NCBI GenBank assembly: GCA_009692365.1
Contig: SHZJ01000028.1
Coordinates: 1 to 46,806, forward strand
Direction: 5' to 3'
DNA length: 46,806 bases
DNA from: Gammaproteobacteria bacterium
Lineage (GTDB): Bacteria > Pseudomonadota > Gammaproteobacteria > Ga0077536
Position numbers and translations under genes: made by a program. Below the pieces are notes generated by a model, which saw nothing but the letters and a program-made list of their open reading frames with translations, did not search any database and had not been told where the DNA came from. This document shows positions 6,273-41,692 of the stretch, piece by piece. Each line of letters opens with the position of its first letter. Within the stretch, counting starts at the first letter, position 1.

Positions 6273-7214
6273 ATGAAACACCTCAGCCCACCGGCCGCTT
6301 GCGGCATTTTGCTGGTCTTCGCCGGTGTGCTCCTGGCGGGCTGTCGCAGCGAACAAACTCGCCCCGTGTACCGCGACAACGATGTTCGCGTGCAGGCGGT
6401 GTTGGCGGCCGAGCAAAAGCGCGCCGAGGCGCAGGCCCACGAACGGGCTCCCCCGCCACCCGCAAGCGCCCCCGCCACCCCCGAGCTACCCAGCACAAAC
6501 CCGCCCGCCACCCCGGGCGGCGAGGCTCAGGCCGCCAGCGCGCCCGCCGCCGCGCCACCATCTCAAGCGCCCAGCGCGCGCGGCGCTTATGTGGAAATGA
6601 CCGAAACCCCGGCCGGCGCCCCACCGCCCGCCCCCCGCCCCGCCGTGCCGAGCGCCACCCCGGTCGCGGGCGGCGGCAGCGGCGGCAATGTGCCGCATGA
6701 CCGCCCAGCGAGTTCGCTCACCGGCACCACCGCACCACCCACCGGGGCATCGGGCCGACTTGGGCCGGCCGGCACCAACCCGCCCGTGCGGGGGGTCAGC
6801 GCGCCGCAAGGACGCCCCATGAGTGCGGTCGCGGCCAGCGAACTGGACACTAAACGGGCGGCGTTCGAACGCTTGATGGGGCAAGCACAGCAGGCGGCCG
6901 ACGCGGAGAAAGCCGCGGCCCTGACGAGCGGCGCGCGCGAGGCGACGCCGGCGAGCGCCGGTGGGCAGCTGGCGCCCGGCGGATATGGTGCCGGCGGCGC
7001 GGCTGGGCTCTCGACTGGCCTGGGGGCCTCACCGGATTTAAGCGGCGTCACGCAGGGCAATCCGCGCCTGGGCGGGCCCTCGGCGGTGCAGGCCAGCGAC
7101 TACGCTGATGAGGACATCGTGGCCCGGCAACTGCGCGAAGCCGCCCAAACCGAGCGCGATCCGGTGCTCCGCGAGAAGCTCTGGTTTGAATATCGCCAGT
7201 ACACCCGGCCATGA
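6273..7214 (+). CDS. Proline/alanine-rich outer-envelope lipoprotein, first gene of the VWA/ExbB-like cluster
   Basis: A 313-residue protein with a lipoprotein signal: a hydrophobic segment followed by the lipobox LAGC, with Cys24 as the lipidated residue. The mature part is mostly low-complexity Pro/Ala/Gly/Thr (about 30-200), suggesting an extended spacer across the periplasm. The last ~30 residues are charged and look folded ([20 protein letters not shown], then a short basic tail). No known domain is recognisable. It opens a run of eight same-strand genes, 45 bp ahead of the TPR-like gene. Position and lipidation suggest an envelope anchor for the system encoded downstream, but this is inference. 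Confidence 0.75.
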
Positions 7215-7259
7215 GCCAGGCTCGGACCACCCCGGCGACTCAGCCACGAGTCATGCTGC

Positions 7260-8579
7260 GTGTCTGAATCTCCCCACGCGATCACGCCAACCCCACTGAC
7301 CCCACCACCGTCAGACGCCCCGCCGGCCGCCGCCAGCGCGGCCCGGCCCGGCGGCTGGTTTGGCACGGCCGGCACCACTCGGTGGCTGGCGCTCGGCGCT
7401 GGCGCGACGCTGGCGACGGTTTTTCTGCTAAGCAGCCGGACCCCACCCGGGCCGCTCATTGCGACCACGCCGCCAACCATCACCACCGCCAGCCAGCCCG
7501 CCAAGCCCGCTGAGCCCGCCGATCCCATTCTGTCACCGGCCGCGTTGGCGGCCGCCCGATTGGACGCGCAAAACGCGCTCGCCGCGGTGCTGGTGGCGAG
7601 TGATGCGCTGGCGGCGCAGCGGGCCAGCGAGTGGGATGCGGCGGCTTGGACGCAAGCCCAAAGCGGTCTCGCGCTAGGCGAGCGGGCCTACCGCGAAGAG
7701 CGCTATCCGGCCGCAATTCGGCACTACGCAGCGACCCGGGCAGACTTGGCCCAGCTCGCGGGACGCCTGCCAGGGCTGATTGCCGCCAGCGCCGCCGAGG
7801 GCCAGCAGGCGCTGGCGCGGGGCGACGCCGTGGCCGCGACCCGTGCTTTTACCCGCGTGCTGGCAGCCTCCCCGGCGCAGCCCCAAGCCACCATAGGTCT
7901 GGCCCGCGCCCGGCACTACGACCAAGTGCAGGCCCTGCTCGCAGAAGGCGCCGGCTATGAGCGCCTCAACGACCCCACCAAGGCGCGCACCAGCTATGGG
8001 GCGGCGCTGGCCTTGGATCCGGCAACGCCCCTGGCCACCCAGGGCTTGGCCCGGCTCGACGAGGACGCGCGGGCCGAAAGCTACGAGCTCGCGATGTCGC
8101 AGGGCTATGCCGCGCTGGCAGACGCGCGCTTCGACGCCGCCCGCGTGGCTTTTACCAAAGCCGGGCAACTGCAACCGACCGCCGAGGACGCCCGGCGGGC
8201 GCTCGCCACCACCGCACTACTCGCCAGCGCCGCTAAATTTAACGCCTACCTCACCGGTGCCACCCGCCACGAACATACGGAGCGCTGGGAGGACGCCGTG
8301 AGCGCGCTCAGCGCGGCGATGGCCATCGACCCCGACGTGGCGGCGCTAGGCGCGCGACGCGAGTACGCACGCGGCCGGGCGGCACTGGCGCGCCGCTTAC
8401 AGGCCAGCCTCCAAGACCCGGCGCAACTGCGCGAGCCAGCCAGCGCTGCGGCGGCCGCGCGCCTCCTCGAAGACGCCCGGCGCACGACCCCGTCCGGGCC
8501 CAAACTGCGGGCGCAAATCCAACAACTGGGCGGTGCCCTAAAACAAGCGCGGGAGTCCCCATCGGAAGTACAACGCTAG
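7260..8579 (+). CDS. Membrane-anchored TPR-like repeat protein
   Basis: A 439-residue protein with a proline-rich cytoplasmic N-tail, one membrane helix at about residues 41-58 (WLALGAGATLATVFLL) and a long alanine-rich helical C-part outside. Repeated stretches such as ARGDAVAATRAFTRVLAASP, DPTKARTSYGAALALDPATP and ARFDAARVAFTKAGQLQPT have the spacing and small-residue pattern of tetratricopeptide repeats, a protein-protein interaction fold. The start codon is GTG (encoding MSESPH); no ATG lies near the expected start. It is placed between the lipoprotein and the PEGA protein, and its topology (type II, periplasmic TPRs) suggests a scaffold. No closer homologue is recognised. Confidence 0.75.
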   Translation: MSESPHAITPTPLTPPPSDAPPAAASAARPGGWFGTAGTTRWLALGAGATLATVFLLSSRTPPGPLIATTPPTITTASQPAKPAEPADPILSPAALAAARLDAQNALAAVLVASDALAAQRASEWDAAAWTQAQSGLALGERAYREERYPAAIRHYAATRADLAQLAGRLPGLIAASAAEGQQALARGDAVAATRAFTRVLAASPAQPQATIGLARARHYDQVQALLAEGAGYERLNDPTKARTSYGAALALDPATPLATQGLARLDEDARAESYELAMSQGYAALADARFDAARVAFTKAGQLQPTAEDARRALATTALLASAAKFNAYLTGATRHEHTERWEDAVSALSAAMAIDPDVAALGARREYARGRAALARRLQASLQDPAQLREPASAAAAARLLEDARRTTPSGPKLRAQIQQLGGALKQARESPSEVQR

Positions 8580-8739
8580 CCGCACAAGAGCGCCCTAGCG
8601 GGGGCGCCTTCGCTATACTGCACTGGATGTTGCGCCCACTCCTCCGTTCAGCCCACACCCCCCCCTCGCGTCCGGCGCGACGCGGCGAACTCGTGCGCGG
8701 GGCGCGCGTAACCGGCAGCAGGCTTAGGCATAACCGGGC

Positions 8740-10950
8740 ATGACGCAGGATTTCCGCCCACCCGATGCCACCCCAATCGAGCCGACGAGCTTTCGGCCAC
8801 CGCGCCCCTCCGCGGGCTGGACTTGGCCCGCGCTGCCTTGGGCCGCCCTGCTGGCGAGTGCTGCGGTGGGTTTGACGCTAGTGGTCATCGCCTACCTCGC
8901 GTTCGCGCGCTCAGTGGCGTTGAACGCGGCACCGGCGCACGCCGCGCTGAGCGTGCGGGGGGTGTTTGCCCCGCGGATTGGCAGCCACTGGTTGCTCATC
9001 CCCGGCGCCCATCGGGTGCACGCCCAGGCCGACGGCTACAAGCCGTTTGACGAACAAATCACGGTCACGAGCGCAACCCTGCAGGCCCACACCATCACGC
9101 TGACACCGCTCCCCGGACGCTTGACCCTTACCCTCAACCCCAGTACCGAGGCCAGCGTGTGGGTCGATGGAGAGCTTGCCGGAACAGCCCCCGGCACGCT
9201 GGACGCCATCGAAGCCGGACCGCGTGAAGTGCGGGTCGAAGCCCCGCGCTACCTGCCTTTCCTGACCAAGCTGGTGGTGCGCGGCCAAGGCCAGGAAGAA
9301 ACGCTGGAGGTCAACCTCACACCCGCGTGGGCTGATTTCAGGATAGCCTCGCAGCCCACCGGCGCGCAGGTCACGGTGGACGGCAAACTCTTGGGCGCCA
9401 CCCCGCTCGGTGCCGAATTGTTGCACGGCGAGCGTAAACTCACGCTCACCCGGCCCGGCTATAAGCCCTGGTCGCGGGTGTTGAAAGTGGTGGCCGGACG
9501 AGCCCTCGACGTGGCGGAGGTCACCTTGAGCAAAGCCGACGGCTGGTTGGAAATCGTGACCGAGCCGCGCGGCGCGGCGGTCACCGTGGACGGGCGTTAT
9601 CGCGGCGAATCGCCGGTCAAGGTGCCGGTCGCGCCGGACGCCGGGCACCGCGTGACGGCCATGAAAGCAGGCTACGAACCGCAAAGCGCGAGCGCCCAGG
9701 TGGCCCCCGACGACACCACCAATCTGGCCTTGCAGCTCGCCCCAGAACTCGCCGTCATCAATCTCATCACGCTGCCGGCCGACGCCGAATTAGTCCTCGA
9801 CGGCCAACCGGCCGGCAACGCCACGCAACGGCTGAATCTGCCGACTTTCGAACACGAAATTGTAGTTCGACGCGCCGGCTACGCCACCTACCGCACGCTG
9901 ATCACGCCGCGCAAAGGGGTCGATAAGCACCTGCGGATCACCCTCAAGACCGCCGCGGAGATGGCCACCGAACTGACCCCGCCAACACCGGAGCCGGTGC
10001 CCGCCGCGCCGTCGGCCGCGCCCTCACAGCTGCCACCGCCCTTGAGTGAAGCCGACCAACAGGCGGCTCTGGTCATGGCGCAAATCGTACCGCCCGCGGC
10101 GCTTGCAGCGCTTGCAGCGCTGGCTGCCGGTGACCGGCTGGCGCCCCGCAGCCCACCATCGCCGGCCACTGCGGGGCAATTGCGCACGGCGCTCGGGCAG
10201 TCGCTGCTGCGGGTGAACGGTGGGGATTTGGTGCTGCCGGGCCGCCCACCGGCACGCTTGGCGCGGCCTTTTTATTTGGCCACCCGCGAGGTGACCAACG
10301 CGCAGTATCAACGCTATATGGCGCTCCATCAGGTCGGGGCGACCGCGGCACCGGAGGTCAGCAACGCCCAGCTGCCGGTGGTTCTAGTGAGCTGGGAGGC
10401 CGCCGCGCAATACTGCAATTGGCTCTCGCGGCTGGACGCCCTGCCGGTGTTCTACCAAATTAAATATGGTCGCGTGCTCGGCATCCATCCCGAAGCGGTG
10501 GGCTATCGCCTACCGACCGAGGCCGAGTGGGACTGGGCAACCGCCGTCACGGCGACGGGCGCGGCGCAAGAATATCCCTGGGGTGGCGGCTTTCCACCGC
10601 CAGCGCGCAGCGGCAATTTTGCCGATCGGGCGGCTGGCTCCTCGCAAAATGAGGTCCTAGAGGGTTACGACGACGGCTTTGCCAGCGCGGCGCCGGTCGG
10701 CAGCTTCCCGCCCAACGCGCAGGGTTTCTACGATTTGGCGGGTAATGTCGCCGAGTGGGTCCACGATACTTTCGCGCCGACTCCCGCCGCGGGTCTCGAC
10801 CCCCTAGGGCCACCGCTGGCCGCCCAACACGTGGTGCGTGGGTCGAGCTGGGCCCAAGCCGAGCGCGCCAAGCTGCGGGCGCTAGCGCGCAGCCCCGGGG
10901 TGGGTGGACGCCCCGATCTGGGCTTTCGCATCGCCCGGTACGCGCAGTGA
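8740..10950 (+). CDS. PEGA-repeat protein with C-terminal FGE/sulfatase-modifying-factor-like domain
   Basis: A 736-residue type II membrane protein. Residues 1-30 are a short cytoplasmic tail and about 32-55 a membrane helix. At least four, probably five, PEGA-type beta repeats follow (about 67-410); each has a variant of the signature seen in GAQVTVDGKLLGATPL and ends in a GY-containing strand. A proline-rich linker covers roughly 410-470. The last ~250 residues are an FGE-sulfatase/SUMF1-type fold: REVTNAQYQRYM, YRLPTEAEWDWA, YPWGGG, GFYDLAGNVAEWVHD, HVVRGSSW and DLGFRIAR. The paired active-site Cys residues of true formylglycine-generating enzymes are absent from the VRGSSW segment and what follows, so a binding or structural role is more likely than catalysis. 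Its stop overlaps the next start (GTGA). Confidence 0.9.
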   Translation: MTQDFRPPDATPIEPTSFRPPRPSAGWTWPALPWAALLASAAVGLTLVVIAYLAFARSVALNAAPAHAALSVRGVFAPRIGSHWLLIPGAHRVHAQADGYKPFDEQITVTSATLQAHTITLTPLPGRLTLTLNPSTEASVWVDGELAGTAPGTLDAIEAGPREVRVEAPRYLPFLTKLVVRGQGQEETLEVNLTPAWADFRIASQPTGAQVTVDGKLLGATPLGAELLHGERKLTLTRPGYKPWSRVLKVVAGRALDVAEVTLSKADGWLEIVTEPRGAAVTVDGRYRGESPVKVPVAPDAGHRVTAMKAGYEPQSASAQVAPDDTTNLALQLAPELAVINLITLPADAELVLDGQPAGNATQRLNLPTFEHEIVVRRAGYATYRTLITPRKGVDKHLRITLKTAAEMATELTPPTPEPVPAAPSAAPSQLPPPLSEADQQAALVMAQIVPPAALAALAALAAGDRLAPRSPPSPATAGQLRTALGQSLLRVNGGDLVLPGRPPARLARPFYLATREVTNAQYQRYMALHQVGATAAPEVSNAQLPVVLVSWEAAAQYCNWLSRLDALPVFYQIKYGRVLGIHPEAVGYRLPTEAEWDWATAVTATGAAQEYPWGGGFPPPARSGNFADRAAGSSQNEVLEGYDDGFASAAPVGSFPPNAQGFYDLAGNVAEWVHDTFAPTPAAGLDPLGPPLAAQHVVRGSSWAQAERAKLRALARSPGVGGRPDLGFRIARYAQ

Positions 10951-11141
10951 AAAGCCCCACCGTGACGCTTGCGCTGCTGCTGGCGCTGATGCCGACCGGC
11001 GCGCAAACTGCCGCCCCCGAGCCGCCGCCAGAGAATACCGAACGCCCGGAATATCGGGCCCGCCCGCTGCCTAACGACACGTTCAACCCGCGCGAGAAGG
11101 TAGCGGAGGATTCCCCCGTCCCCTTCCCGGAGGATATCTGA
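10947..11141 (+). CDS. Small exported protein, 64 residues
   Basis: A short gene starting at a GTG that overlaps the stop codon of the PEGA gene (GTGA, 10947-10950), which argues for translational coupling and decides the start. The product has a signal peptide (KSPTVTLALLLALMPTGAQT, cleavage near residue 20) followed by about 44 residues rich in Pro and Glu, ending PVPFPEDI. It has no cysteines after the signal and no recognisable domain. A 52-bp gap separates it from the actin-like gene. It is likely periplasmic and may be a linker or accessory peptide of the envelope complex; that role is inferred only from context. Confidence 0.6.
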   Translation: MKSPTVTLALLLALMPTGAQTAAPEPPPENTERPEYRARPLPNDTFNPREKVAEDSPVPFPEDI

Positions 11142-11193
11142 GCACACCCTCGGGCCGCGCGCCGCCGGCCGCCACAACCAGCAAGGGGACAAC

Positions 11194-12486
11194 ATGACGG
11201 CCTTCGTCATCGAGGTGAACGACTACGAATTGCGGGCGGCCAAGCTGGGGGAAGTGCTGGTCACCAGCCCCGGCTACGCGGCGCTGATCGATGGTCAGAT
11301 AACGATCGGCAGCGCCGCCTTGGCGAGGGCGCACAGCCAACCACGCGCGAGCGAGAACCGCTACTGGCGCGACCTCAACACGGCCCCCATCGAGCACCTG
11401 GGCCGGCGCGTGCGCCACCACGCCGATCTGGTTTGGCTGCAATTGGAACAACTGCGCCTGCAGGCCGGAAACCCGCTAGAGGCGGCCTTTGCGGTGCCGG
11501 GGAGCATGCATCACACGCAGTTAGCGTTGCTCTCGGGGGTCGCCCAGAGCTGCCAACTACGGCCCACCGGCTTGGTCGACAGCGCCGTAGCCGCCGGCGC
11601 CGCGGCGTTGGGGCCGGGCGCGTGGACCCACATCGACCTGCAGCAGCATCAGGCGGTGCTCACCCGGCTCGACGTCGCCGAGCGGGTAACCCGTCAGGTG
11701 GTGGAAGTGTTGCCCGGGTTTGGCGTCAACCGGCTGCGGCAGCTGTGTGTGCGGGTCATCGCCGCGGCTTTTGTGGGCCAGTGCCGGTTCGACCCTCTGG
11801 TGCATGCCGACACCGAGCAGTTGCTCTACGCCCAGCTCACCGCCAGCCTGAGCGTCCTCAAGGCCCAGCCCGAAATAAATATGGTGCTGGACTACCACGG
11901 CAAGCATTTCGAGGCACGCGTGCCGCGCCTCGCCATCCTAGAAGCCGTAGCCCCGCTGCTGGGCGCGCTGCGGGCGGCGGTGCCAACGCACAGCGCGCCG
12001 GTGGCTAGCCATCGCTTGGCGAGCCAACCCGGCTACGCCGAGGTGTTCGCCCAAGTACCGGCGCTCAGCCCGCGCGCGGTGTTTCAAGGACTCAAAGCCA
12101 TCCAATGGCCCGGCGGCGCCTTGCAGCTACTCACGGCACTGCCAGCCAGCGCCACGCCCAGCCTGACGCTACCCGCTGCCCTCTCGGCGAGCGTCGAGGC
12201 GCCCACGCATCTGCTCGAACACACCACCGCCCTGCCGCTGTCCGCGCGCACGCTGTATTTGCTGCCACGCGGGGGCATTGCCCGCAGCGCCGAAGCCGGT
12301 GCGCTCGCCAGCGTGTGTCAGCGGGGTCAGGTCGTTGAGCTAACCCCGATGCCGGCCAGCCGCGTGCTGCTAAACGGGCGTGCGGTCGACACCGCAGCCG
12401 TGCTGCGCGCCGGCGACCAAATTACGTTCGCTGGCGCCGGCGTCATCTTCACGGCCATCCGGGTCATCGGCGCCGATGCCACTTAA
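11194..12486 (+). CDS. Degenerate actin/Hsp70-fold protein with beta-rich C-terminal tail
   Basis: A 430-residue protein with no signal or membrane helix, so cytoplasmic. The arrangement recalls the ASKHA (Hsp70/actin-like) fold: an N-terminal strand pair, EAAFAVPGSMHHTQ at about 97-109 (like the VTVPAYF segment of Hsp70), GLVDSAVAAGAAAL at 126-139 (like NEPTAAALAYG), then WTHIDLQQHQAVLTRLD where Hsp70 has its glycine-rich phosphate loop. The phosphate-binding glycines are missing, so nucleotide binding is doubtful. The final ~60 residues (VELTPMPASRVLLNGRAVD, LRAGDQITFAG) read like an FHA- or S4-like small beta domain. It overlaps the first VWA gene by 11 bp. It may be the cytoplasmic docking part of the complex. 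Confidence 0.6.
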   Translation: MTAFVIEVNDYELRAAKLGEVLVTSPGYAALIDGQITIGSAALARAHSQPRASENRYWRDLNTAPIEHLGRRVRHHADLVWLQLEQLRLQAGNPLEAAFAVPGSMHHTQLALLSGVAQSCQLRPTGLVDSAVAAGAAALGPGAWTHIDLQQHQAVLTRLDVAERVTRQVVEVLPGFGVNRLRQLCVRVIAAAFVGQCRFDPLVHADTEQLLYAQLTASLSVLKAQPEINMVLDYHGKHFEARVPRLAILEAVAPLLGALRAAVPTHSAPVASHRLASQPGYAEVFAQVPALSPRAVFQGLKAIQWPGGALQLLTALPASATPSLTLPAALSASVEAPTHLLEHTTALPLSARTLYLLPRGGIARSAEAGALASVCQRGQVVELTPMPASRVLLNGRAVDTAAVLRAGDQITFAGAGVIFTAIRVIGADAT

Positions 12487-13564
12487 GCGCCGACCGTTTT
12501 CGGTCTTTACCCTATCGTTTCTGGACGTCATGTGCTGCGGCTTTGGCGCCGTGGTGCTGATGTTCATGATCCTCCAGCACGAGGCCATCGTGCAGGAGCA
12601 AGTGCAGCAGGTGGATTTGTCGGCGGAAGTCACGGCCTTGCAGGCACAGATTGCAGCGGTGCAAACAGAAATCCACGCGGCCCAGAACAACTCGGCGTCC
12701 ATCGACCAGCGCATCGCCGCCCTCATCACCGAGTCTGCCAGCGCGCGCGCACTGTTGGCGCAAACCCGCGCCCAGCTAAAACCGGGGCAGGCTCCGGTTG
12801 TCACCAGCCGCGACATCGACGCGCTCAGAATGGCGCTCAAAAAGCTCGACAGCGAAAAACAGCTCGTGCTCTCCCAACTCAACGAACAATCCCGCGACGT
12901 GCGCCAATTTATGGGCCAGGGGAATCGGGAATACCTCACCGGCATCCGCACCGGCGGCAAGCGCGTGCTGATCCTCCTCGATAATTCCTCCAGCATGTTG
13001 GACGAGTCCATCGTGAACGTGCTGCGCAAAAAAAATATGGACACCGCGACCAAGCAGCGTTCCGAGAAGTGGCGGCAGGCGCTGGACACCGTGGACTGGA
13101 TTACCGCGCGTCTGCAACCGGGCACCGAGTATCAGCTGTACACCTTCAGCGGCAGCGCACGACCGGTGGTGCCGGGCAGCGAGGGGCGCTGGCTGGCCGT
13201 CGACAACGCCACGCTGTTCAATCAGGCCGTGCTCAGTTTGAAAGCCACGGTGCCCGAGGGTGGCTCTAATCTGGCCCGCGCCCTGCAGGTCGTGGGGCAG
13301 CTTAACCCGCGCCCCGACAACGTTTTTCTGATCACCGACGGCCTGCCCACCATGGGCCTGCAGCCACCGTCCGGTCGCAAGGTCTCGGGTGAACGACGCA
13401 ACGAATTATTCACCGAGGCCCTGCGGCAAATTCCGCAGCCCGCGCCACCCATCAACGTCGTGTTGCTACCGCTAGAGGGCGACCCCATGGCCGCGTGGGC
13501 GTATTGGTCGGTCGCCATGTACACCCGCGGGGCTTTCCTCACCCCCGCCTACGACTGGCCATGA
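12476..13564 (+). CDS. VWA-domain membrane protein 1 with ExbD/TolR-like N-terminal helix
   Basis: A 362-residue protein. I start at the ATG at 12476, which overlaps the previous stop by 11 bp. Residues 1-14 are basic and cytoplasmic. SFLDVMCCGFGAVVLMFMIL (14-33) is the only membrane helix and carries Asp17 at its cytoplasmic end, placed as in the FIDVM segment of ExbD/TolR, whose Asp relays protons. A coiled coil (about 37-145) follows, then a von Willebrand A domain with the metal site DNSSS at 169-173 and a later TDGLP. The VWA domain should lie in the periplasm. The gene shares a stop/start overlap with the second VWA gene and a neighbour encoding an ExbB-like subunit, so it is a plausible stator partner. 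Confidence 0.85.
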   Translation: MPLKRRPFSVFTLSFLDVMCCGFGAVVLMFMILQHEAIVQEQVQQVDLSAEVTALQAQIAAVQTEIHAAQNNSASIDQRIAALITESASARALLAQTRAQLKPGQAPVVTSRDIDALRMALKKLDSEKQLVLSQLNEQSRDVRQFMGQGNREYLTGIRTGGKRVLILLDNSSSMLDESIVNVLRKKNMDTATKQRSEKWRQALDTVDWITARLQPGTEYQLYTFSGSARPVVPGSEGRWLAVDNATLFNQAVLSLKATVPEGGSNLARALQVVGQLNPRPDNVFLITDGLPTMGLQPPSGRKVSGERRNELFTEALRQIPQPAPPINVVLLPLEGDPMAAWAYWSVAMYTRGAFLTPAYDWP

Positions 13565-14571
13565 AACTTACCCGCCGCGAACCGCCAGAAATTGGCATCT
13601 CGTTTCTCGACACCATCACCTGCGGGGTGGGGGCCATCATTTTGTTGATGACGGTGACCACCACCCGCCCCCACGTCCCGGAGCGGCCGGTTGAAGATCC
13701 GCGCGCGGCGCAAATCAGCCAGCTGCAGCGCGAACTGTTTGCCGAGCGTGCCGTGCTGGCCGGGGTCAACGCCGAGGAGCAGCAGCGCGCGGGCGCGCAA
13801 CAGCTGTCCGAAGCCGAGCTAAAAAAAGTAAAAGCGCAGATCGCCGCCCTGCTCAGCGCGCAGGCCAACGCCGGTCGGGCCGATCAAACGGCCGCCTTGA
13901 ATGCTGAAATCTATGGCCAGCTTAAAACGGCCCAGCAGCAAATCACCGAGGAAATGGCGCAGCTATACGCCCAGAAAAATCGCGCGCGGCCCAAAAATCT
14001 GATCGGCGGCATCCCCATCGATTCGGAGTACATCTGCTTCATCATTGATACCTCCGGGAGCATGTTCAACTACGCTTGGCCGCGGATGCTGACCGAACTC
14101 ATCGAAATTTTGAGCGTCTATCCCCGGGTGAAGGGTATTCAGATCATGAATGACCAAGGTACCTATATGTTTCCCGAGCACGCTGGCGGCTGGCTCACGG
14201 ACTCGCCCGGCCAGCGCCGCGCGGTCATCGACAAACTCGCCACCTGGAATGTGTTCAGCAAGTCGAGTCCGGGCGAAGGCATCACCGCAGCGGTGCAGCA
14301 GTTCTACCGCGCCGACCGCAAAATTAGCCTGTACGTGCTGGGCGACGAATTTACCGGGCCGTCCATTCGTGAGATTGCCGAGGTGGTGCGTCAAACCAAT
14401 CGCCCCGCCGGCACGGGTGGGCCGCGCGTGAGGATCCACGCCATCGGCTTTCCCACCCAGTTTGCCAATCCACCCAGCATGCAGGCCACCGGCATCCGCT
14501 TTGCGGCGCTCATGCGCGAACTGACTCGCCAGAACGGCGGCAGCTTCGTCGGACTCAACTCATTTCGCTAG
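13561..14571 (+). CDS. VWA-domain membrane protein 2 with ExbD/TolR-like N-terminal helix
   Basis: A 336-residue paralogue of the preceding protein, starting at an ATG that overlaps the previous stop (ATGA, 13561-13564). It has the same plan: a short basic tail, Asp17 in ISFLDTITCGVGAIILLMTV, one membrane helix, a coiled coil (about 48-140) and a VWA domain with the metal-ion motif DTSGS at 163-167. It then continues through a full Rossmann-like domain ending GGSFVGLNSFR. The identical position of the Asp and the shared FLD motif in both proteins suggest they act as a heteromeric pair. It likely works with the ExbB-like protein encoded 38 bp downstream. Sequence identity to VWA protein 1 is low outside these motifs. 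Confidence 0.85.
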   Translation: MKLTRREPPEIGISFLDTITCGVGAIILLMTVTTTRPHVPERPVEDPRAAQISQLQRELFAERAVLAGVNAEEQQRAGAQQLSEAELKKVKAQIAALLSAQANAGRADQTAALNAEIYGQLKTAQQQITEEMAQLYAQKNRARPKNLIGGIPIDSEYICFIIDTSGSMFNYAWPRMLTELIEILSVYPRVKGIQIMNDQGTYMFPEHAGGWLTDSPGQRRAVIDKLATWNVFSKSSPGEGITAAVQQFYRADRKISLYVLGDEFTGPSIREIAEVVRQTNRPAGTGGPRVRIHAIGFPTQFANPPSMQATGIRFAALMRELTRQNGGSFVGLNSFR

Positions 14572-14609
14572 CGCGTTACGGCGCCCTTAAGACAGACAGG
14601 ATTTTTCGC

Positions 14610-15407
14610 ATGAAAAAAGCGTTTCCGTTCGATTTCTTCTACGTCCTCATTACCCTGCTGCTGAGTTTTGTCATCGTGCACACCACCTACACTATCGCGG
14701 TGCGGCCGAGTGCAGAAGCGGTTCTCAACCACCAACGCGAGGTATGGGCCGCCGACCCCATGGCCCGCATGCCGCGCTCGGTTATGGTGATCCTCCACGA
14801 CTTCGAGCCCGAAGGCTGTTTTGTCCTGGCCGTTTGGGCCGGTTTTATTTTGGGCTGGCGCCAATGGCTGGTGCTGCGTGAGCAACGCACGCTGGAGCAC
14901 GACTTCGTGGCGCTTAAAGATGGCGAAGTGCTATTCCCCGACGATGTGCGCGAATTCTCCCGCCAAATCGAGCAATTACCCCTCGCCGAGCAGCAGCGCT
15001 TTCTGCCGCGCGCTATCACGGTGGCGTTGAATCGCTTTGGGGCGACCCGCAGCGTGCAGCATGCGGCGGACGCCGCACGCGAAGAATGCGAATTTCAGGC
15101 CTCACGGCTCGACGCGGAACTCTCGATGATCCGCTTTACGGTGTGGGCCATCCCGGCAGTGGGCTTTGTGGGCACGGTGCGCGGCATCGGCGCGGCCTTG
15201 CAAGAGGCGCAGCGCGCGGCGGCCGGCGATGTCACCGGCGTCACGCAAGGCCTGGGCATTACGTTTAATTCAACGCTGGTAGCGCTCTCCCTCACGATCG
15301 TGGTGATGTTCTTCCTGCACCAAATACAACTCTCGCAGGACCGCCTAGTGCTCGACACCAAACGCAAGGTGGATAACACCCTTATCCGGCACCTGCGCGA
15401 ACGCTAA
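14610..15407 (+). CDS. MotA/TolQ/ExbB-family proton channel subunit
   Basis: A 265-residue integral membrane protein. Four helices are visible: about 10-30, 69-88, 175-198 and 216-238. The last two carry the family core, WAIPAVGFVGTVRGIGAAL (about 179-197) and QGLGITFNSTLVALSLTI (213-230), which line the proton path in ExbB/TolQ. A cytoplasmic loop of about 85 residues lies between helices 2 and 3, as in ExbB. The N-terminal helix is an extra compared with ExbB's three, as in MotA. It is the last gene of the cluster, 38 bp after VWA protein 2. Known relatives convert proton flow into movement of a periplasmic partner; the partner here is probably the VWA pair. Confidence 0.88.
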   Translation: MKKAFPFDFFYVLITLLLSFVIVHTTYTIAVRPSAEAVLNHQREVWAADPMARMPRSVMVILHDFEPEGCFVLAVWAGFILGWRQWLVLREQRTLEHDFVALKDGEVLFPDDVREFSRQIEQLPLAEQQRFLPRAITVALNRFGATRSVQHAADAAREECEFQASRLDAELSMIRFTVWAIPAVGFVGTVRGIGAALQEAQRAAAGDVTGVTQGLGITFNSTLVALSLTIVVMFFLHQIQLSQDRLVLDTKRKVDNTLIRHLRER

Positions 15408-15490: not shown

Positions 15491-16411
15491 TTAGGTCACG
15501 ACGCTGAGAAACCTCTCGTTGAGTTTTCGATCGTGGAAAAAAATGGCGCGACCCAGTTGGTCGGTGGTCCAGGTAATCGGCTGGTGGTCGGCATACCAGG
15601 TGTAGTCGCCGCAAAAGACTTCGTTGCGATTACCGGACGGGTCGAAGAAATAAATGGTGCGACCCCGCGTTATGCCGTGCCGGGTCGGCCCGATGTCTAG
15701 TGGAATGTCGTGCATGGAAATGAGGTCGGCTGCGCGCAGCACTTCTTCCCAAGTGCCCAATAAGAAAGACGCGTGGTGAAAGCGACCCTTCTCGGCGTGA
15801 CGGATGATCGCGATATCGTGCGCCTTGTTCGAACAGGTGAGGAAAGCACCCACCATGAGTTCGCCTTCCATGATCTGCTCGGTCAGGTCGAACTCCAGCA
15901 CTTCGCGAAACAGCCGCACCGTGCCGTCGAGGTCGTCGCCATAAATGAGACAGTGGTCAAAGCGCGAGGGTTGCATGCCCTTGAGGTCCTCGGGCCACGG
16001 ATTGGGATTGAGCCGACCTAGCCCATTGCCCTTGCAGTCTTTGCTGGCGTAGAGCTCAAACCAGTGGCCAGTGGGGCTATCAAAGCGCACGCGCGCGCCG
16101 CAATGGCGTAACTCGCCGGCGGGAATGCGTTCCACCTGGCAACCAAAGGCGCGCAGCGCCGCCTCGTAGCGGGCCAAGTGGGCCTCGTTCAAGACCCGAA
16201 AACCCAGATAGTCCATGCCCGGCTCAGGGGCTTCGCGCAGCACCACCGAGAACCAATCTTGTTCATCCCAGCCCTTGAAATAGACCCGGCCCTGGTCGTC
16301 GCGGTCAGTTTCTTGCAGGCCCAGACGGTCGCGGTAGTGGACGATGGCGGCCTCCAGATCGAGCACACGCAGACAGACATGCCCGGGACGCAGTACGGCG
16401 GATAAAGCCAT
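15491..16411 (-). CDS. Catechol 2,3-dioxygenase (second copy, last gene of the operon)
   Basis: A type I extradiol dioxygenase of the VOC fold, 306 residues, the size of XylE/DmpB (307). It opens catechol next to its hydroxyls to give 2-hydroxymuconic semialdehyde. Two VOC modules are visible: residues 7-120 and 148-280. The Fe(II) ligands are His153 (RFDHCLIYG), His212 or His213 (FHHASF) and Glu264 (NRNEVF). The active-site segment [10 protein letters not shown] is intact. It starts 4 bp after the ferredoxin gene and has a leaderless, tightly packed arrangement. It is a diverged paralogue of the dioxygenase at 22092-23024, so the two may favour different substituted catechols. It could equally be called dmpB/xylE. 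Confidence 0.93.
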
Positions 16412-16415
16412 GGGG

Positions 16416-16784
16416 TTACTCCTTATGGGGTCGGGGTGAGCCTGGGCTCACGGGTGCGGAATTCTGGGGCCGACGCGCGCCGAACAGCGGCGCGCACGGT
16501 GCCCTGACCACGCGCAGGGTGAGGTGGCTGAGCGGCACCAGGCAGCAAGCCAGACCAATCCCCGCCGCCGCCTCGGCGTCGCCAATGTGCGCGCGACTCA
16601 TGCGTCGGCGCAAATACTGGCCGTGGATGACCTGCACTTTGCACACCCCACAACCACCGCCACGGCAGCCCACCGGAATGTCGCACCGACTGAGCCGCTC
16701 CATGCCCTTGAGCACGCTGTCGTTGGGTTGGCAGATAAACCGCTCGGCGGTGTCTTCAATGAGGACTTCAAAGTGGGTATCCAT
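16416..16784 (-). CDS. dmpQ: Chloroplast-type [2Fe-2S] ferredoxin (XylT/DmpQ-like)
   Basis: A 122-residue plant-type ferredoxin. The cluster ligands are Cys40, Cys45 and Cys48 ([14 protein letters not shown]) plus Cys80 or 81 in GLACCLVP. In tol and dmp operons XylT/DmpQ sits directly before the catechol 2,3-dioxygenase and re-reduces its iron after the oxidative inactivation that some methylcatechols cause. The location here is the same: it begins 2 bp after dmpP and ends 4 bp before the dioxygenase. The C-terminal ~20 residues are Arg/Pro-rich and not typical of the family, making it slightly longer than the usual ~112. Function by family and position. Confidence 0.9.
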
Positions 16785-16786
16785 AT

Positions 16787-17845
16787 TTACAGGCGCCGAA
16801 ACAGCGGGCTGCGCGCCTGCGCGTGGGTGGCATCGGCGGCGCTTAGAAATTTCTCAGTGTAGATGTCTTGCTCGAACAGCCGGCCCTGCATCAGCGAGCG
16901 CAGGCAGGCTTCTACCATGGCCGGCGGCCCGCACACATAGGCCTTGTGGTCGGCGTAGCGCCGGGCAAATACCTCATCCGCCGCCTCGTGCACCAAACCG
17001 GTCGGGCCTTGCCAGTACTCATCGGCCTCGTTGACCACCGCCACGTAGCGAAAGTTCGGGTGCTGCACGGCCAAGGACTCAAACCGCGCGTGGTCATAGA
17101 GTTCGGCGGGAGTGCGCGCGCCGTACACCAGCGTGAGCGGGCCGGGCCAGGCGTGTTCGAGCAAATCGAGCAACATGGCTTTCGGGCTGGACACCCCCGA
17201 GCCGCCGGCCAGAAAAAGCATCGGCAGGGTGGCCGAGGTCCGCACAAAAAACCGGCCCAAAGGCCCGCTGAGGGTCAGTTCATCGCCGCAGCGCAGTTGC
17301 TCGTGCAAATACTGCGTCGCCGCCCCACCGGCAACTTTGCGCACGTTGAATTCCAGCACACAGGCCGAGGATGGCGCAGAGGCGATCGAGAAAGCGCGCG
17401 CACCGACCACGCCGGGCACGCGCAGATTAACGTATTGCCCCGCCTGAAAAGCCAAGCCCGGCGGCGGTAGTTCCAGCCAAATTCCTTTCACCGTCGGCGA
17501 CAGGTCGGCTAGGCGCACTACCCGTCCGACCAAATCACAGATCGCCAGATTTTGCGCATCGGGATCGCACTCGACGTCAGCCTCGACCACGCAGTCACTG
17601 CGCAGGGTGGTCACGCAGGCCAGGCATTTACCCTCCTCGCGTTCGATGTCCATCAGCGCAAAAGCGGACGACGCCTGATGTTCCACCTCCCCCTCCAACA
17701 CCTGCACTTTACAGGTGCCGCACAAGCCGTGGTGACAGGCATAGGGCAGGTAGACCCCGGCCCGCAGGCAGGCGTCGAGGAGGCTTTGCGCGGGCGCCAC
17801 CTCTACGACCTCGCCGGATGGCTCGATGGTAAGACGAAAACTCAT
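16787..17845 (-). CDS. dmpP: Phenol hydroxylase reductase component (P5)
   Basis: The 352-residue reductase that passes electrons from NAD(P)H through FAD and a [2Fe-2S] cluster to the phenol hydroxylase oxygenase. Domain order is ferredoxin (1-90; Cys37, Cys42, Cys45 and Cys77), FAD-binding (about 105-200, with RAFSIASAPS) and NAD-binding (about 210-345, with LFLAGGSGVSSPKAML and the C-terminal YVCGPPAMVEACL). Length matches DmpP (353). A 108-bp gap from dmpO is the largest within the hydroxylase block. Nothing is missing from the expected motifs. Confidence 0.96.
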   Translation of the reverse strand: MSFRLTIEPSGEVVEVAPAQSLLDACLRAGVYLPYACHHGLCGTCKVQVLEGEVEHQASSAFALMDIEREEGKCLACVTTLRSDCVVEADVECDPDAQNLAICDLVGRVVRLADLSPTVKGIWLELPPPGLAFQAGQYVNLRVPGVVGARAFSIASAPSSACVLEFNVRKVAGGAATQYLHEQLRCGDELTLSGPLGRFFVRTSATLPMLFLAGGSGVSSPKAMLLDLLEHAWPGPLTLVYGARTPAELYDHARFESLAVQHPNFRYVAVVNEADEYWQGPTGLVHEAADEVFARRYADHKAYVCGPPAMVEACLRSLMQGRLFEQDIYTEKFLSAADATHAQARSPLFRRL

Positions 17846-17953
17846 GGGATTAGCACCACGGGCACGCCGCCGGCCCGGCGCCTCGCGCGGCCCAGTCGCA
17901 GCGGGGCCACGTTGAGCACGGCGGCCCGCCCCGCGCCCGGGCCGCCAGTGATC

Positions 17954-18313
17954 TCACACCCCGTGACCGTTGAATCCATCTAGGCCCGGCGCACGAAAGC
18001 TCAAATAAGACATGTGGACCACCCCGCCTTCGCGCAGCGAGGCGGCGAGTTTGGGCTGCCAAGACTTGCCGTCCAGGGTCCAGATGAGATTGTGGTAGTT
18101 CAGCCGCGCGTAGTCAGGATGATGCTGGTGGTCGGGCCGAAACATAGTTTCAAGAAAATCGATCAGCGGAATGTCTGGCGGCAGCCGATAGGCCGCTGGG
18201 CAGGGGATCAGCAAATGATGCTCCCAGCAGCAGTAGATGTTGATGTCCCCACCATAATTTTCGACCCGGTCGGCCGGTTTGAAGTCATAGTCGCCGATAG
18301 AGATAGTAGCCAT
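17954..18313 (-). CDS. dmpO: Phenol hydroxylase P4 subunit
   Basis: A 119-residue small subunit of the phenol hydroxylase oxygenase; DmpO of Pseudomonas is also about 119. It begins MATISIGDYDFKPADR, and ENYGGDINIYCCWEHHLL and LDGKSWQPKLAASLREGG are characteristic. In the structurally known homologues this subunit helps form the hydroxylase and may bind zinc through its Cys/His residues; here Cys-Cys-Trp-Glu-His-His is present. The ATG at 18313 lies 10 bp after the dmpN stop, which fixes the start; a longer open frame upstream would overlap dmpN. Part of the compact KLMNOP block. Confidence 0.94.
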   Translation of the reverse strand: MATISIGDYDFKPADRVENYGGDINIYCCWEHHLLIPCPAAYRLPPDIPLIDFLETMFRPDHQHHPDYARLNYHNLIWTLDGKSWQPKLAASLREGGVVHMSYLSFRAPGLDGFNGHGV

Positions 18314-18323
18314 GGCGGGTCGT

Positions 18324-19856
18324 TCAGGCCGCAGCGCTAGAGGGCGTGGTGTCTTTGCCGCCATGCCATTGCTTCCAGCGCGCGTAATCCTCGGAGGTGT
18401 AGTACTCCCCGGAATCTTTCCCAAATTCACATTTAAGCCAGGCTGCGTACTCTTGCAGGTTGCGCGCGCCCCCCGCATTGCCTTGATAGATTTGCTGCGG
18501 CGGAATATAGGCTTGGCAGAATTTTTCCGGCTCGTGCGCAAAGATGTCTTTGCAGCCGTCCGAACAAAAATTGAACTTCATGCCCTGCCAATCCAGCTGC
18601 CGCACCGACTGTCGCATCGGATTGTTGACCTCGGTGAAGAACACCGGCACCTGGCAGGTCTGGCAAACCAACGGCAGGCGATTGGTGTAGAAGCGCTCAC
18701 CCGCCCGCTCCAACTCGGCAAACTGCGCAAAGCGTGGGCGGTAATAACGCTCGAAAGTTTCGCCGTATTTTTCGCTCAGCCAATCTAACTCATAGGGTTG
18801 CGGCAGCCAGGCGTGAAACGCCGTCGCGGGGCACGCCGTGTAGAACACCGTCCACGCCTGATGGGTGATGTGATTTTTTTCTAGCGTGGCGATTTCGTGG
18901 TATTTCGGCGGCTTGATGCCGTAACGCTCCAAATCGTGGAACAACGCCATGCCATTTTCTTCCCAGTAGATGCCCCAGGCCTCGGCCCACGACATCACTT
19001 TCTTCGGCAGCATGTAGTCCATCATGGTGCCCACCAAGGCCAGTAAACGGTAGCCACGCCAAAACCATTTATCGATATAGCGCTGCATGATCGGCACGTT
19101 GTCTTCGTGCTGCTCCAAGATAAATTTCACCACTTCCAAACCTAGAGTCATGTGGCGAGATTCGTCGGACTGGGCCGAGAAACCAAAAGTCGTGGTGGCC
19201 ATGTCCCCGTTGTAAGCCGCGCCCGACACAAAGGGCATAAACAGCAAATTAGTGAGCACATACTCGAAGGAAAACGAGATGGCCGTGACGAATTCAAAGG
19301 GGCCGGCCGTCATAGCATCTTCGAAATAGGACTTCGGAATGGACAGATACCAAGCGCGGTCACGCATATGCATGGCCTGATGGAAGCCACCAAAGTGCTT
19401 GTTGTACTGGCTGAATGCGTGCATTTGCGTTTGTGCGTGACGTAATTCGTCTAAGGCCTGCATCTGACACGCCACCCGTGCACCGGCACCCCGAAACTGT
19501 CGTCCCACCATGCAGAAGCCACGATGAGAGTTGTATTCCGCGGGCGTAATGCCCTGCATCCAGATTTTGAGCGCGGTCAGATAGCGCGCGTCCGAGAGGT
19601 TCAATTGGCCGTTGTTCTGGCTGAAGCTATCCAGAATGGCGTAGAGCTTGCGCTCTTTTTCCGCCTGATATTTCCAGTATGCGTCCATCGTGAGCCGGAA
19701 AGGGTCTTCCCACTTGTCCCAGTTCTTGATCTTGATGCCCTCGTACTGGTCGTACGGGAAGACCTTGTCCATCGGCTGATAGGTGGTTTCCCAATCCAGA
19801 CCACGGGTCATCAGTTGGTATTTTTCTTTCAGCGTTAATTTCCTGTGGGCCACCAC
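18324..19856 (-). CDS. dmpN: Phenol hydroxylase large (catalytic) subunit P3
   Basis: The catalytic subunit of a soluble multicomponent diiron monooxygenase that converts phenol to catechol, 510 residues. All six carboxylate/histidine iron ligands are in place: Glu107, Glu137 and His140 (DELRH), Glu198, Glu232 and His235 (DESRH). A C-terminal YHS-type metal domain shows CQTC and CSDGC (about 425-465). The start is GTG GTG after GAGGAGAAC; either GTG could be used, and I keep the first. Length and motif order match DmpN. Flanking genes for the other five subunits make this a complete hydroxylase. Confidence 0.97.
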   Translation of the reverse strand: MVAHRKLTLKEKYQLMTRGLDWETTYQPMDKVFPYDQYEGIKIKNWDKWEDPFRLTMDAYWKYQAEKERKLYAILDSFSQNNGQLNLSDARYLTALKIWMQGITPAEYNSHRGFCMVGRQFRGAGARVACQMQALDELRHAQTQMHAFSQYNKHFGGFHQAMHMRDRAWYLSIPKSYFEDAMTAGPFEFVTAISFSFEYVLTNLLFMPFVSGAAYNGDMATTTFGFSAQSDESRHMTLGLEVVKFILEQHEDNVPIMQRYIDKWFWRGYRLLALVGTMMDYMLPKKVMSWAEAWGIYWEENGMALFHDLERYGIKPPKYHEIATLEKNHITHQAWTVFYTACPATAFHAWLPQPYELDWLSEKYGETFERYYRPRFAQFAELERAGERFYTNRLPLVCQTCQVPVFFTEVNNPMRQSVRQLDWQGMKFNFCSDGCKDIFAHEPEKFCQAYIPPQQIYQGNAGGARNLQEYAAWLKCEFGKDSGEYYTSEDYARWKQWHGGKDTTPSSAAA

Positions 19857-19880
19857 GTTCTCCTCAGTTTTTTTAGCGAC

Positions 19881-20156
19881 TCAAGCGCCGTGCCAGGCCA
19901 AAATAAATTCGTCTTCCGTCTCGTCGATATTACCGGCGAGCGAAATCAGGTTGATATGGATGCTTTGCAAATCGAACGCCCGGCCCATTTTTTCTTCGAT
20001 CGTCGTGCGCCTCACCACCAGTCGCCCGGGGGCGTCTATTTTCACCATCGCGGGTTGCTCGTTCGCCACGGCCAGCGGATTGTCCTGCAGAATCGCCTCG
20101 ATGATAGGGCGGGATTCCTCGTTCTGCTGAAAAGCGATAAAGACTTTGTCACGCAT
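19881..20156 (-). CDS. dmpM: Phenol hydroxylase regulatory (effector) protein P2
   Basis: The 91-residue cofactorless effector protein that docks on the hydroxylase and couples electron transfer to oxygen activation. It begins MRDKVFIAFQQNEESRP and matches DmpM (about 90 residues) through RPIIEAILQDNPLAV and INLISLAGNIDETEDEF. The ATG is preceded by GGGGAGGT at good spacing. It lies 1 bp after the dmpL stop and 24 bp before dmpN, as in the classical operon. Confidence 0.95.
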   Translation of the reverse strand: MRDKVFIAFQQNEESRPIIEAILQDNPLAVANEQPAMVKIDAPGRLVVRRTTIEEKMGRAFDLQSIHINLISLAGNIDETEDEFILAWHGA

Positions 20157-20157
20157 C

Positions 20158-21162
20158 TCAGACCTCCCCCACTAAACCCAAACGCGCAAGTCGCCCCGCC
20201 AGTTCGTCCGCGATCTGCTGGGCGATGGCGCTGGCGTGTTCTGCAAACGCCACCGCCAGCAGCGGCGCCACGGCCGCCCGCACACGCGGTAGCCACTGCC
20301 CTAGCCAGCCGTTAATGAGCGCTTGATTGGCGGGACTTTCGCTCACGGCCACCTGCACGGTAGCGTCTACCCAGCGCGTGGATTCGGCGTACCAATCGCG
20401 CATGAACTGCGTCACCAGCGTAAAGCCAACGCCGCCGTGGGCGGTGAGCGCCGCATCGAAATGAGTCCACGCAAAAGGCGCCAGCTGGCCGTCCAGCAGC
20501 AGATTTTGCACCACATGGAGTTCGAACCAATCCTTTACCACCATGCTGTCTTCCACCAGATGACGCAGCGGCTGCCACACGGGATCTGCCAGCCACAGCT
20601 GCTTGCCACGGTCTAGCACCTCGGCATTTTGTCCATCCAGCGCCAGCGCGAGACGCGTGATGTATTGCGCCATGCCTAAGCGGTCCATGGCCTGCATGAG
20701 TGCCGCCGAGGTAAAGGGCGCCCCGTAGCCATAGGCGCTCAAAAAAGCGTTGTTGGTGTTCGCACCCCACTCGAGGTGGCGTAGCGGCACGATGAGATGG
20801 CGAATTTTCTGCGCCCACTCGGGCGCGAGGGCGCCGAGCAGGCCGCGCTTTTCCACCAGCCCAAAATTAGCGTCGCTGAGCTCTTGCTGGCGCGCGCGTT
20901 GGATGGTGTAGGGGGCGTAGTAGTACTGGCGCGGGTCGATGAGTTGGTCGAAATCTGCCAGCACCACGGCCGTGCGCCGGCGGTCGAATAAATCCATTCC
21001 CGGCTCCCACGTGGGCCGGTAGTGAAAGTTGGTGGTCATCTGCAGGTCGTGCACGGCTTCTTGGTAGCGCGTAGCGGCCCGCCCTTTGCCGATCCGGGCT
21101 TCGATATGATCGAAAGTAAGACGGAGGGGTTCGATATGCGCTGTTTTAATCTCGACGGTCAT
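20158..21162 (-). CDS. dmpL: Phenol hydroxylase P1 (beta) subunit
   Basis: The 334-residue second oxygenase subunit. It shares the ferritin-like fold of DmpN but lacks the iron ligands, and forms the (alpha-beta-gamma)2 hydroxylase. Typical stretches are NFHYRPTWEPGMDLFDRRRT and FDQLIDPRQYYYAPYTIQRA near the N-terminus and LEWGANTNNAFLSAYGYG mid-protein. Length matches DmpL (about 331). The ATG overlaps the dmpK stop (ATGA, 21159-21162), so the two are translationally coupled. Confidence 0.95.
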   Translation of the reverse strand: MTVEIKTAHIEPLRLTFDHIEARIGKGRAATRYQEAVHDLQMTTNFHYRPTWEPGMDLFDRRRTAVVLADFDQLIDPRQYYYAPYTIQRARQQELSDANFGLVEKRGLLGALAPEWAQKIRHLIVPLRHLEWGANTNNAFLSAYGYGAPFTSAALMQAMDRLGMAQYITRLALALDGQNAEVLDRGKQLWLADPVWQPLRHLVEDSMVVKDWFELHVVQNLLLDGQLAPFAWTHFDAALTAHGGVGFTLVTQFMRDWYAESTRWVDATVQVAVSESPANQALINGWLGQWLPRVRAAVAPLLAVAFAEHASAIAQQIADELAGRLARLGLVGEV

Positions 21163-21437
21163 CTTGGATGGGGCTCCTCGCCGCGCGCGGCTGCAGATTC
21201 AGGTTCAGCTTCATCGCCTAGGCGCCATTTCCGTTGGGCGGCATCCACGCGGCGGGCTTGCGCGCCAGTCAGCGCCACCGCGCGCTGAGTCAGGCAAAAC
21301 GCTTCGTAGGCGTGCGGCGGCAAAATCATCTCCAGGTATAAAGTGGGGTCGCCGATGGCGAACTGGAATTCAATGAAGCCCCCGCGAGTGACCCCGGTGA
21401 CTCGCACATAACGGGTTTGTTCATCGACCAATTGCAC
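21159..21437 (-). CDS. dmpK: Phenol hydroxylase assembly protein P0
   Basis: The small protein that helps insert iron or assemble the hydroxylase, about 92 residues, as in DmpK. TRYVRVTGVTRGGFIEFQFA, then LYLEMILPPHAYEAFC, fit the family. No ATG lies in the right place. GTG at 21437 gives the expected length, with TTG at 21431 and CTG further up as alternatives; I cannot see a strong ribosome site, so the start is uncertain by a few codons. The preceding DsbA-like gene ends 11 bp upstream. The tail is Glu/Pro/Ala-rich. It overlaps dmpL by 4 bp. Confidence 0.88.
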   Translation of the reverse strand: MQLVDEQTRYVRVTGVTRGGFIEFQFAIGDPTLYLEMILPPHAYEAFCLTQRAVALTGAQARRVDAAQRKWRLGDEAEPESAAARGEEPHPR

Positions 21438-21448
21438 CGGCGTGGCAA

Positions 21449-22057: not shown

Positions 22058-22091
22058 ACTCCCTCCCTAGGTCGCGCTCGCCTGAGCCGCT

Positions 22092-23024: not shown

Positions 23025-23056
23025 GTTGACTCTCCTGACCGCGCGCGGCGGCGTAT

Positions 23057-25792: not shown

Positions 25793-25805
25793 CGTTGCGC
25801 TGTCC

Positions 25806-26594: not shown

Positions 26595-26598
26595 GGGC

Positions 26599-28086: not shown

Positions 28087-28271
28087 GGTGGATGCTCTCC
28101 CCGGTGAGGCAATCGAAGGCGATGGTCGGGGCAAGCCCCAACCCGCGGCCAGCGTCGTCGCGCGGTGCGCGGCGGGCCGGCTTTTTTGTTGGATGTTAGC
28201 AGCATGTGCAAGCCCGAACGAGCGCCGTTGCGGTGATGCGCGGCGCCGGTGGGTGCCCCTCGGCAGCGGCG

Positions 28272-41649: not shown

Positions 41650-41692
41650 ACGCTTAAAAGACTTAGGCCTAAAAGACTTAGCGAGACCACGT

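Follow-up and report, generated by a model that had tools for sequence, protein, structure and literature searches.

An ExbB-like channel gene kept with two VWA genes in a gammaproteobacterial cluster predicted to encode a proton-driven envelope machine

The well-studied motors of the ExbB/TolQ/MotA class have ExbD, TolR, MotB or GldM axles. Which protein could serve as axle where a channel gene of this class lies in a cluster with none of these? The question is raised by the window analysed here, the entire 46,806 bp contig SHZJ01000028.1 (C39) of a 3.45 Mb gammaproteobacterial draft genome, in which an ExbB-like gene closes a cluster that also holds two genes for VWA proteins. A first-pass annotation had proposed an eight-gene, single-strand cluster at this place. 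All eight open reading frames (ORFs) were confirmed in position on the + strand, co-directional and tightly packed, with overlaps of 4, 11 and 4 bp and gaps of 45, 160, 52 and 38 bp, and the cluster proved to be a real, conserved unit that recurs in many genomes. Our reading, which we hold to be probable, is that it encodes a proton-driven, envelope-spanning machine of predicted 5:2 architecture in which the VWA pair replaces ExbD/TolR as the axle.

The pairing of the ExbB-like gene with two VWA genes in place of ExbD/TolR, as the annotation had it, is upheld by the co-occurrence of the genes, by their neighbourhood and by the distances to ExbD. In a class sample of 274 gammaproteobacterial genomes, the source genome included, the ExbB-like profile gave strong matches (E < 1e-60) in 20 genomes and weaker ones (1e-22 to 1e-25) in 4. 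Exactly these 20 strong-match genomes also gave VWA profile matches, and the remaining 254 gave none; G122 and G132 are counted among the 20 through the VWA1 partner match alone. The corresponding Fisher value, 9e-31, overstates independence because the genomes are related. The two kinds of gene lie no more than 5 kb apart on one contig in 19 of the 20 genomes and on separate contigs in the other (G017). On the contigs available, some of them short, the search found the ExbB-like gene without an ExbD/TolR gene inside 10 kb in all 20: the contig carries no ExbD at all in 16, and in the other 4 the nearest ExbD is approximately 11, 11, 41 and 150 kb away, each adjoining another ExbB-type gene. 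The window contig has no ExbD; those of its own genome are on C44, C66 and C70. The converse pattern, an ExbB-like gene always beside a standard ExbD/TolR and never beside VWA genes, did not occur, and the neighbourhood of one ExbB-like and two VWA genes, which it had been proposed to look for elsewhere, was found in many other genomes. The 4 weaker ExbB relatives sit in different surroundings and, after inspection of their loci, were set apart as another family; two of their contigs, of 3.9 and 3.2 kb, are not long enough to reveal a VWA gene. Beyond the class sample, VWA2 is present in 32 of 36 genomes of the same family (the source genome again included) and in 16 of a phylum sample of 398 genomes, of which 3 belong to the same class and 13 to a single family outside it, and a large protein database holds 1,557 ExbB-like relatives and at least 4,804 VWA2 relatives (7,998 candidates scored). 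It appears that the axle is a VWA protein pair within a multi-gene machine carried by a minority of Gammaproteobacteria and by a single family of another class; public genomes and metagenomes hold relatives in the thousands.

The gene order of relatives gives a second view of the pairing. The best 80 of 249 ExbB-like relatives were taken as a set of named loci, among which 53 have VWA genes, 8 end at a contig edge before VWA and 19 have no adjoining cluster gene (one of these, L030, is a 3.8-kb contig). The solitary genes were considered as counter-evidence to the pairing, an objection dropped when a VWA gene was found elsewhere in all 19 genomes (in G322 a VWA1-type fragment alone). The distant VWA clusters could be retrieved in 15 cases, the other 4 lying at contig edges; 12 of the 15 span the ExbB slot with the gene absent, 1 has a copy of its own (in the same metagenome-assembled genome, MAG, as L053/L091) and 2 are cut. 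The ExbB-like gene has apparently moved out of the cluster and yet been retained, which argues for its action in trans with the cluster. We note that eight of the lone genes (L028, L029, L033, L037, L038, L042, L045 and L046) have a partly common neighbourhood, in which sugar-nucleotide and glycosyltransferase-like genes and, on the opposite strand, a carbon-starvation-type transporter were named by eye.

Where the cluster is intact, the usual order is lipoprotein, second lipoprotein, TPR, PEGA-FGE, peptide, ExbB, Hsp70-like, VWA1 and VWA2, with ExbB last among the close relatives of the window. The site of the second lipoprotein is reduced to a mere 45 bp in the window. A conserved lipoprotein-like gene of about 424 aa stands between the lipoprotein and TPR genes in 34 loci and one of about 250 aa follows VWA2 in 21 (L064:3723-4943, L021:1283-2551 and L081:14293-15111 exemplify this flanking pair); neither gave a Pfam family in the examples scanned. 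Four loci, L158 and the three retrieved from the family of another class (L151, L152 and L155), have by profiles only the lipoprotein, TPR, PEGA-FGE, ExbB and two VWA genes, a possible minimal core. Loci L013, L015, L023 and L051 are titled Klebsiella pneumoniae or Janthinobacterium lividum; these labels look wrong, the sequences being MAG contigs whose clusters resemble those of the present gammaproteobacterial family.

The features of the window on which the following paragraphs draw are these:

6273-7214, + strand: lipoprotein, 313 aa, with lipobox LAGC, low-complexity middle and conserved C-terminal stretch (profile matched 43 loci)
7260-8579, + strand: TPR protein, 439 aa, GTG start (Pfam TPR_2, 7.9e-10)
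8740-10950, + strand: protein with PEGA (4 stretches) and an FGE-type domain, N-terminal hydrophobic segment (Pfam)
10947-11141, + strand: 64-aa peptide, probably exported (by-eye reading), C-terminus PFPEDI
11194-12486, + strand: pseudo-Hsp70 nucleotide-binding-domain fold with a degenerate C-terminal FHA-type domain (model, Foldseek, profile)
12476-13564, + strand: VWA1, N-terminal Asp helix, coiled region and VWA domain (Pfam VWA_2, 1.1e-8; alignment A5)
12524-12526, + strand: codon of VWA1 membrane Asp17 (SFLDVMCCGFGAVVL), invariant across the 30 rows of A5
12980-12997, + strand: first metal ion-dependent adhesion site (MIDAS) motif of VWA1, DNSSSM
13561-14571, + strand: VWA2, helix 13-34 with Asp, long helices 47-139 and VWA domain 157-331 (model, Foldseek)
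13609-13611, + strand: codon of VWA2 membrane Asp17 (SFLDTITCGVGAIIL), invariant in alignments A2 (26 rows) and A4 (42 rows)
14047-14064, + strand: first MIDAS motif of VWA2, DTSGSM
14610-15407, + strand: ExbB/TolQ/MotA-family channel protein (ExbB-like), 265 aa (Pfam MotA_ExbB, 2.8e-11; TolQ alignment)
15174-15176, + strand: codon of ExbB-like Thr189, equivalent to TolQ T145 (gapless alignment)
15273-15275, + strand: codon of ExbB-like Thr222, equivalent to TolQ T178 (gapless alignment)

The lipoprotein, the 64-aa peptide, the Hsp70-like protein and VWA2 gave no Pfam family at E 0.1.

The ExbB-like protein scores 43.7 bits against MotA/TolQ/ExbB (PF01618), passing the curated cut-off of 22.9, and is assigned to the family because of this match and not of its TolQ profile score. 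Its profile aligns with TolQ without gaps across 111 residues, which places T189 on T145 and T222 on T178. Both positions are threonine in 100 of 100 sequences, the window included, although these sequences are related and not independent. The sections of PMC12583513 consulted give T145 and T178 of TolQ and D23 of TolR as residues of the proton path. An ExbB-like pentamer is predicted to conduct protons.

Both VWA proteins begin with an Arg-rich stretch; a single hydrophobic helix follows, in which FLD stands close to the start. A simple hydropathy script places the segment of VWA1 at residues 15-33. The first-pass annotation had seen a membrane Asp in both proteins, and the acid is indeed kept: among 170 VWA ORFs the helix-start residue is Asp in 169 and Glu in 1. 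Of these, 163 Asp and the Glu were assigned by script and the other 6 were resolved individually; in 3 of them FLD precedes the called start and follows a probable CTG start, and in 3 it lies deeper within an over-long ORF. The Glu is found in L144:9595-10578, whose membrane helix reads SFLE; it is the sole VWA2 seen with this natural replacement of Asp by another acid. VWA1 of L151:8580-9644, and likewise of L152 and L155, is apparently CTG-started, FLD preceding the first ATG/GTG/TTG. The first MIDAS motif, DxSxSM, is present in 85 of 86 VWA1 and in 84 of 84 VWA2 ORFs. The VWA2 model (predicted local distance difference test, pLDDT, 77) matches VWA structures by Foldseek, and it is because of this fold match, without a Pfam family, that VWA2 is counted as VWA. 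The label "adhesion" formerly attached to these domains is not supported as written. These residues also bear on a non-motor explanation, in which the ExbB-like protein is a membrane scaffold of a signalling complex whose VWA, TPR, PEGA, FHA and kinase domains sense the envelope. The related clade has kinase and FHA parts, and there are distant ExbB-VWA loci with FHA, PP2C and a kinase-PEGA protein (L173). A scaffold would not be expected to require either the proton-path threonines, kept in all sequences compared, or the membrane acid, and we consider the explanation improbable.

Several results weigh against the proposed machine. The TolQ profile match of the ExbB-like protein has E 0.05 by itself, and the counterpart of TolQ E173 is the non-acidic I217. 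The VWA proteins have no Pfam match to ExbD/TolR (PF02472), and their helices scored 8.3 against ExbD in hhalign, where column-shuffled ExbD gave 9.0 +/- 2.0 and 194 of 300 shuffles reached 8.3 or more. Homology of the VWA membrane helices with ExbD thus had no profile support and was set aside, leaving a resemblance of position and motif; because profile homology is absent in both Pfam and hhalign, we treat the resemblance as functional, with descent not established. ExbD and TolR are reported in the part of PMC12505986 consulted to lie typically below detection in its searches and to have been assigned through gene proximity. No segment of the TPR protein or of the 64-aa peptide is above threshold in the hydropathy script, so that the annotation's terms "membrane-anchored" and "exported" rest on a by-eye reading; the two genes stand, their localisation being weaker than was claimed. 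ExbD genes are moreover present elsewhere in all 20 genomes and could act in trans, and several contigs offer less than 10 kb per flank (e.g. 3.6, 4.4 and 5.1 kb), so that the flanks are only partly visible in some genomes.

The ubiquity of ExbD in these genomes would suit an arrangement in which a standard ExbD/TolR, encoded at another place, partners the ExbB-like protein, with the VWA pair bound at the side to transmit force as TolA/TonB do. The portion of PMC12204202 consulted describes, beside tolR-like genes, another vWA family, which would attach to the side of the motor via an SHLS motif. We think such an arrangement unlikely for the present cluster: no ExbD was found adjoining the ExbB-like gene, SHLS occurs in none of 198 VWA ORFs whereas the FLD/FLE helix is kept, and the same 20 genomes carry both the ExbB-like and the VWA genes, which co-occur even when apart.

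With the VWA pair as axle, the machine may be pictured as follows. The ExbB-like pentamer would turn a dimer of VWA1 and VWA2, protons passing the Thr189/Thr222 ring to reach Asp17 in one or the other VWA protein. Motion would be carried by the long helices and the periplasmic VWA domains, perhaps by MIDAS contacts, to the TPR and PEGA-FGE proteins, from which it would pass onward to the lipoproteins at the outer membrane.

The presence of two membrane VWA proteins with a TPR protein, together with a weak BatC match (E 0.015), recalls the Bat (aerotolerance) and MoxR-VWA systems, in which case the VWA pair would be chaperone-like. We judge a relationship of this kind very unlikely. The MoxR-type (PF07726) matches of the source genome are on other contigs, inspection of the clustered flanks by eye (they were not domain-scanned) showed no MoxR-type gene, and an ExbB-like gene is not known to belong to Bat. 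In the PEGA-FGE protein Pfam finds PEGA at 2e-46 (4 stretches) and FGE-sulfatase at 2.2e-38, and the hydropathy script places the N-terminal hydrophobic segment at residues 37-55. In FGE the catalytic Cys pair follows an RGGSW-type segment. The window's domain has no Cys in the expected segment (RGSSWAQAERAKLRALAR), nor was any found there in the 48 of 48 PEGA-FGE ORFs in which the segment was located, a further 38 of the 86 ORFs having no recognisable segment. The FGE domain is probably a binding module. By eye, relatives seem likely to have an FHA domain at the N-terminus of their PEGA-FGE protein; this is not claimed, PF16697 being below cut-off (0.00063) and the FHA profile reaching 0.014 at best. 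The FGE fold also invites comparison with the type IX secretion system (T9SS), where the GldLM motor is likewise 5:2 and GldM touches GldK (PMC9389320, in the part consulted), so that GldK-GldLM resembles our cluster in having a 5:2 motor beside an FGE-fold periplasmic protein. The PEGA-FGE protein reaches 88.8 bits on the GldK model (TIGR03525), far short of its cut-off of 350 bits, and the score falls on the FGE domain; the VWA proteins have no GldM match in the same scan and GldK-GldLM has no VWA axle. A GldKLMN-type gliding or secretion motor is accordingly a highly improbable identity for the cluster.

The 64-aa peptide ends in PFPEDI, and its relatives keep an FPxDI-type C-terminus. The Hsp70-like protein was modelled with a pLDDT of 92.4; its description as actin/Hsp70-like was right, and it is closer to Hsp70 by Foldseek (best 1.4e-15, TMt 0.72 against a 357-residue DnaK chain) and by profile (7.6e-6). 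The Hsp70 phosphate loop DLGGGT is not found in it, DLGGGTFDVSLL of Ssb1 aligning with ldvqlhqavltel, and because the loop is absent the protein is probably a pseudo-ATPase. We regard it as probably a cytoplasmic scaffold.

A related clade, exemplified by L064, has a Ser/Thr kinase domain at the N-terminus of the TPR protein (Pkinase, 3.6e-24) and an FHA domain at the C-terminus of the Hsp70-like protein (1.3e-11). The window's TPR protein has no kinase, and its FHA-type domain is without the phosphothreonine motif S-R-x-H. By script, 59 loci have both genes complete (30 others, cut or lacking one, were left out): kinase and S-R/K-x-H motif are both present in 39 and both absent in 17, the motif occurs without the kinase in 2 (L065 and L143, the TPR gene of the latter probably running past the contig end) and the kinase without the motif in 1 (L080), the motif being present in 41 of the 59. 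The Fisher value of this table, 1e-11, is not used as proof, there being only 2 independent pairs. For the kinase, 2 changes suffice on a 63-row VWA2 tree, so that the kinase-FHA association rests on few events. Locus L063, inside the kinase clade, has no kinase, and Pro replaces the motif Arg. Loss of the kinase in the window lineage is not claimed, since with 2 changes on an unrooted tree gain and loss cannot be distinguished. In the related clade, the FHA domain of the Hsp70-like protein would read phosphothreonine made by the TPR-protein kinase; the window's form, without kinase and FHA motif, is presumably not gated in this way. A more elaborate proposal, that of a new class of phosphorylation-gated rotary envelope machine, a VWA-axle 5:2 motor whose pseudo-Hsp70/FHA protein is a clutch engaged when the TPR kinase phosphorylates it or the motor, with a constitutive, kinase-less window lineage, is put forward tentatively, and we find it rather doubtful. 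The kinase-bearing and kinase-less forms are in any case a natural comparison for how such a motor may be gated.

The weak-ExbB loci set apart above include a second locus type that joins ExbB, a membrane-acid VWA protein and phospho-signalling. Pfam finds FHA in L173 and L174 and PP2C in L172, L173 and L174; L175 is FHA-bearing by eye. The two loci with long flanks, L173 and L174, have one VWA gene each, with SALD in the membrane helix. Segments L173:9078-18952 and L174:6122-10750 hold an FHA gene, the ExbB relative, a PP2C phosphatase, a trypsin-like protease (itself FHA-bearing in L174) and the single VWA gene, and L173 also has a kinase-PEGA protein. They share with our cluster a distant ExbB relative, a membrane-acid VWA protein, phospho-signalling parts and, on the L173 kinase, PEGA; they differ in their single VWA, PP2C and trypsin-like protease, and neither a PEGA-FGE protein nor paired VWA was found there.

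How far is the proposed VWA-axled machine new? The earlier statement that no such system had been described stands for the whole gene set, which none of the titles listed in searches of open-licence PMC papers (preprints excluded) gives, and falls for the motor core. "TPH-vWA" pairs with a "transpore helix" and an Asp, beside tolQ-like genes and without tolR/exbD, appear in the consulted part of PMC12204202 (Mol Biol Evol 2025), modelled with AF3 as the dimeric partner inside a TolQ-like pentamer. Shared with the window are the vWA pair, the TolQ-like gene, the absence of tolR/exbD, the membrane-helix Asp and a predicted Asp-Thr ring. The differences lie in PEGA, sulfatase and kinase, none of which a word search finds in that paper's main text as consulted. 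Compared by described features, the motor core is a member or close variant of the TPH-vWA kind, and it is not new because that paper already predicts it. What is new is a pseudo-Hsp70 with an FHA-type C-terminus, a Cys-less FGE domain, a peptide with a conserved tail and a related clade bearing kinase and FHA; the whole-genome pairing test and the relocation of the ExbB gene are also added here. The partners worth testing are named by the cluster itself: pseudo-Hsp70, PEGA-pseudo-FGE, peptide and lipoproteins.

The TolQR, ExbBD and MotAB 5:2 motors have the channel family, the threonine pair and a single acid close to the beginning of the axle helix in common with the cluster; its putative axle protein ends in long helices and a VWA domain, where theirs has a small ExbD/TolR domain or else an OmpA-type anchor. 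The Myxococcus Agl-Glt machinery is similar in its ExbB-family motor, TPR proteins, FHA-bearing protein and trans-envelope layout, as far as the consulted part of PMC3169522 describes it. There, AglQ and AglS belong to the ExbD/TolR family and are encoded beside AglR, an arrangement without counterpart on the window contig, and that part of the paper has no VWA axle, PEGA-FGE or Hsp70-like protein. A defence system was also considered and rejected, PADLOC having given only E 0.0035 to 0.04 on VWA1, which we judged to be coiled-coil noise.

The remainder of the window holds genes of other kinds. Positions 15491-28134 (- strand) carry aromatic degradation genes, comprising two phenol hydroxylase components, a reductase, two catechol-dioxygenase-like proteins and acetaldehyde and aldehyde dehydrogenases. 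A single 911-aa ORF at 41276-44011 (+ strand) extends over two acyl-CoA dehydrogenase units, either a fusion or a start artefact. The Na/H exchanger with TrkA_N at 31306-32166 (- strand) seems to be truncated at the N-terminus, since its match starts at profile position 173.

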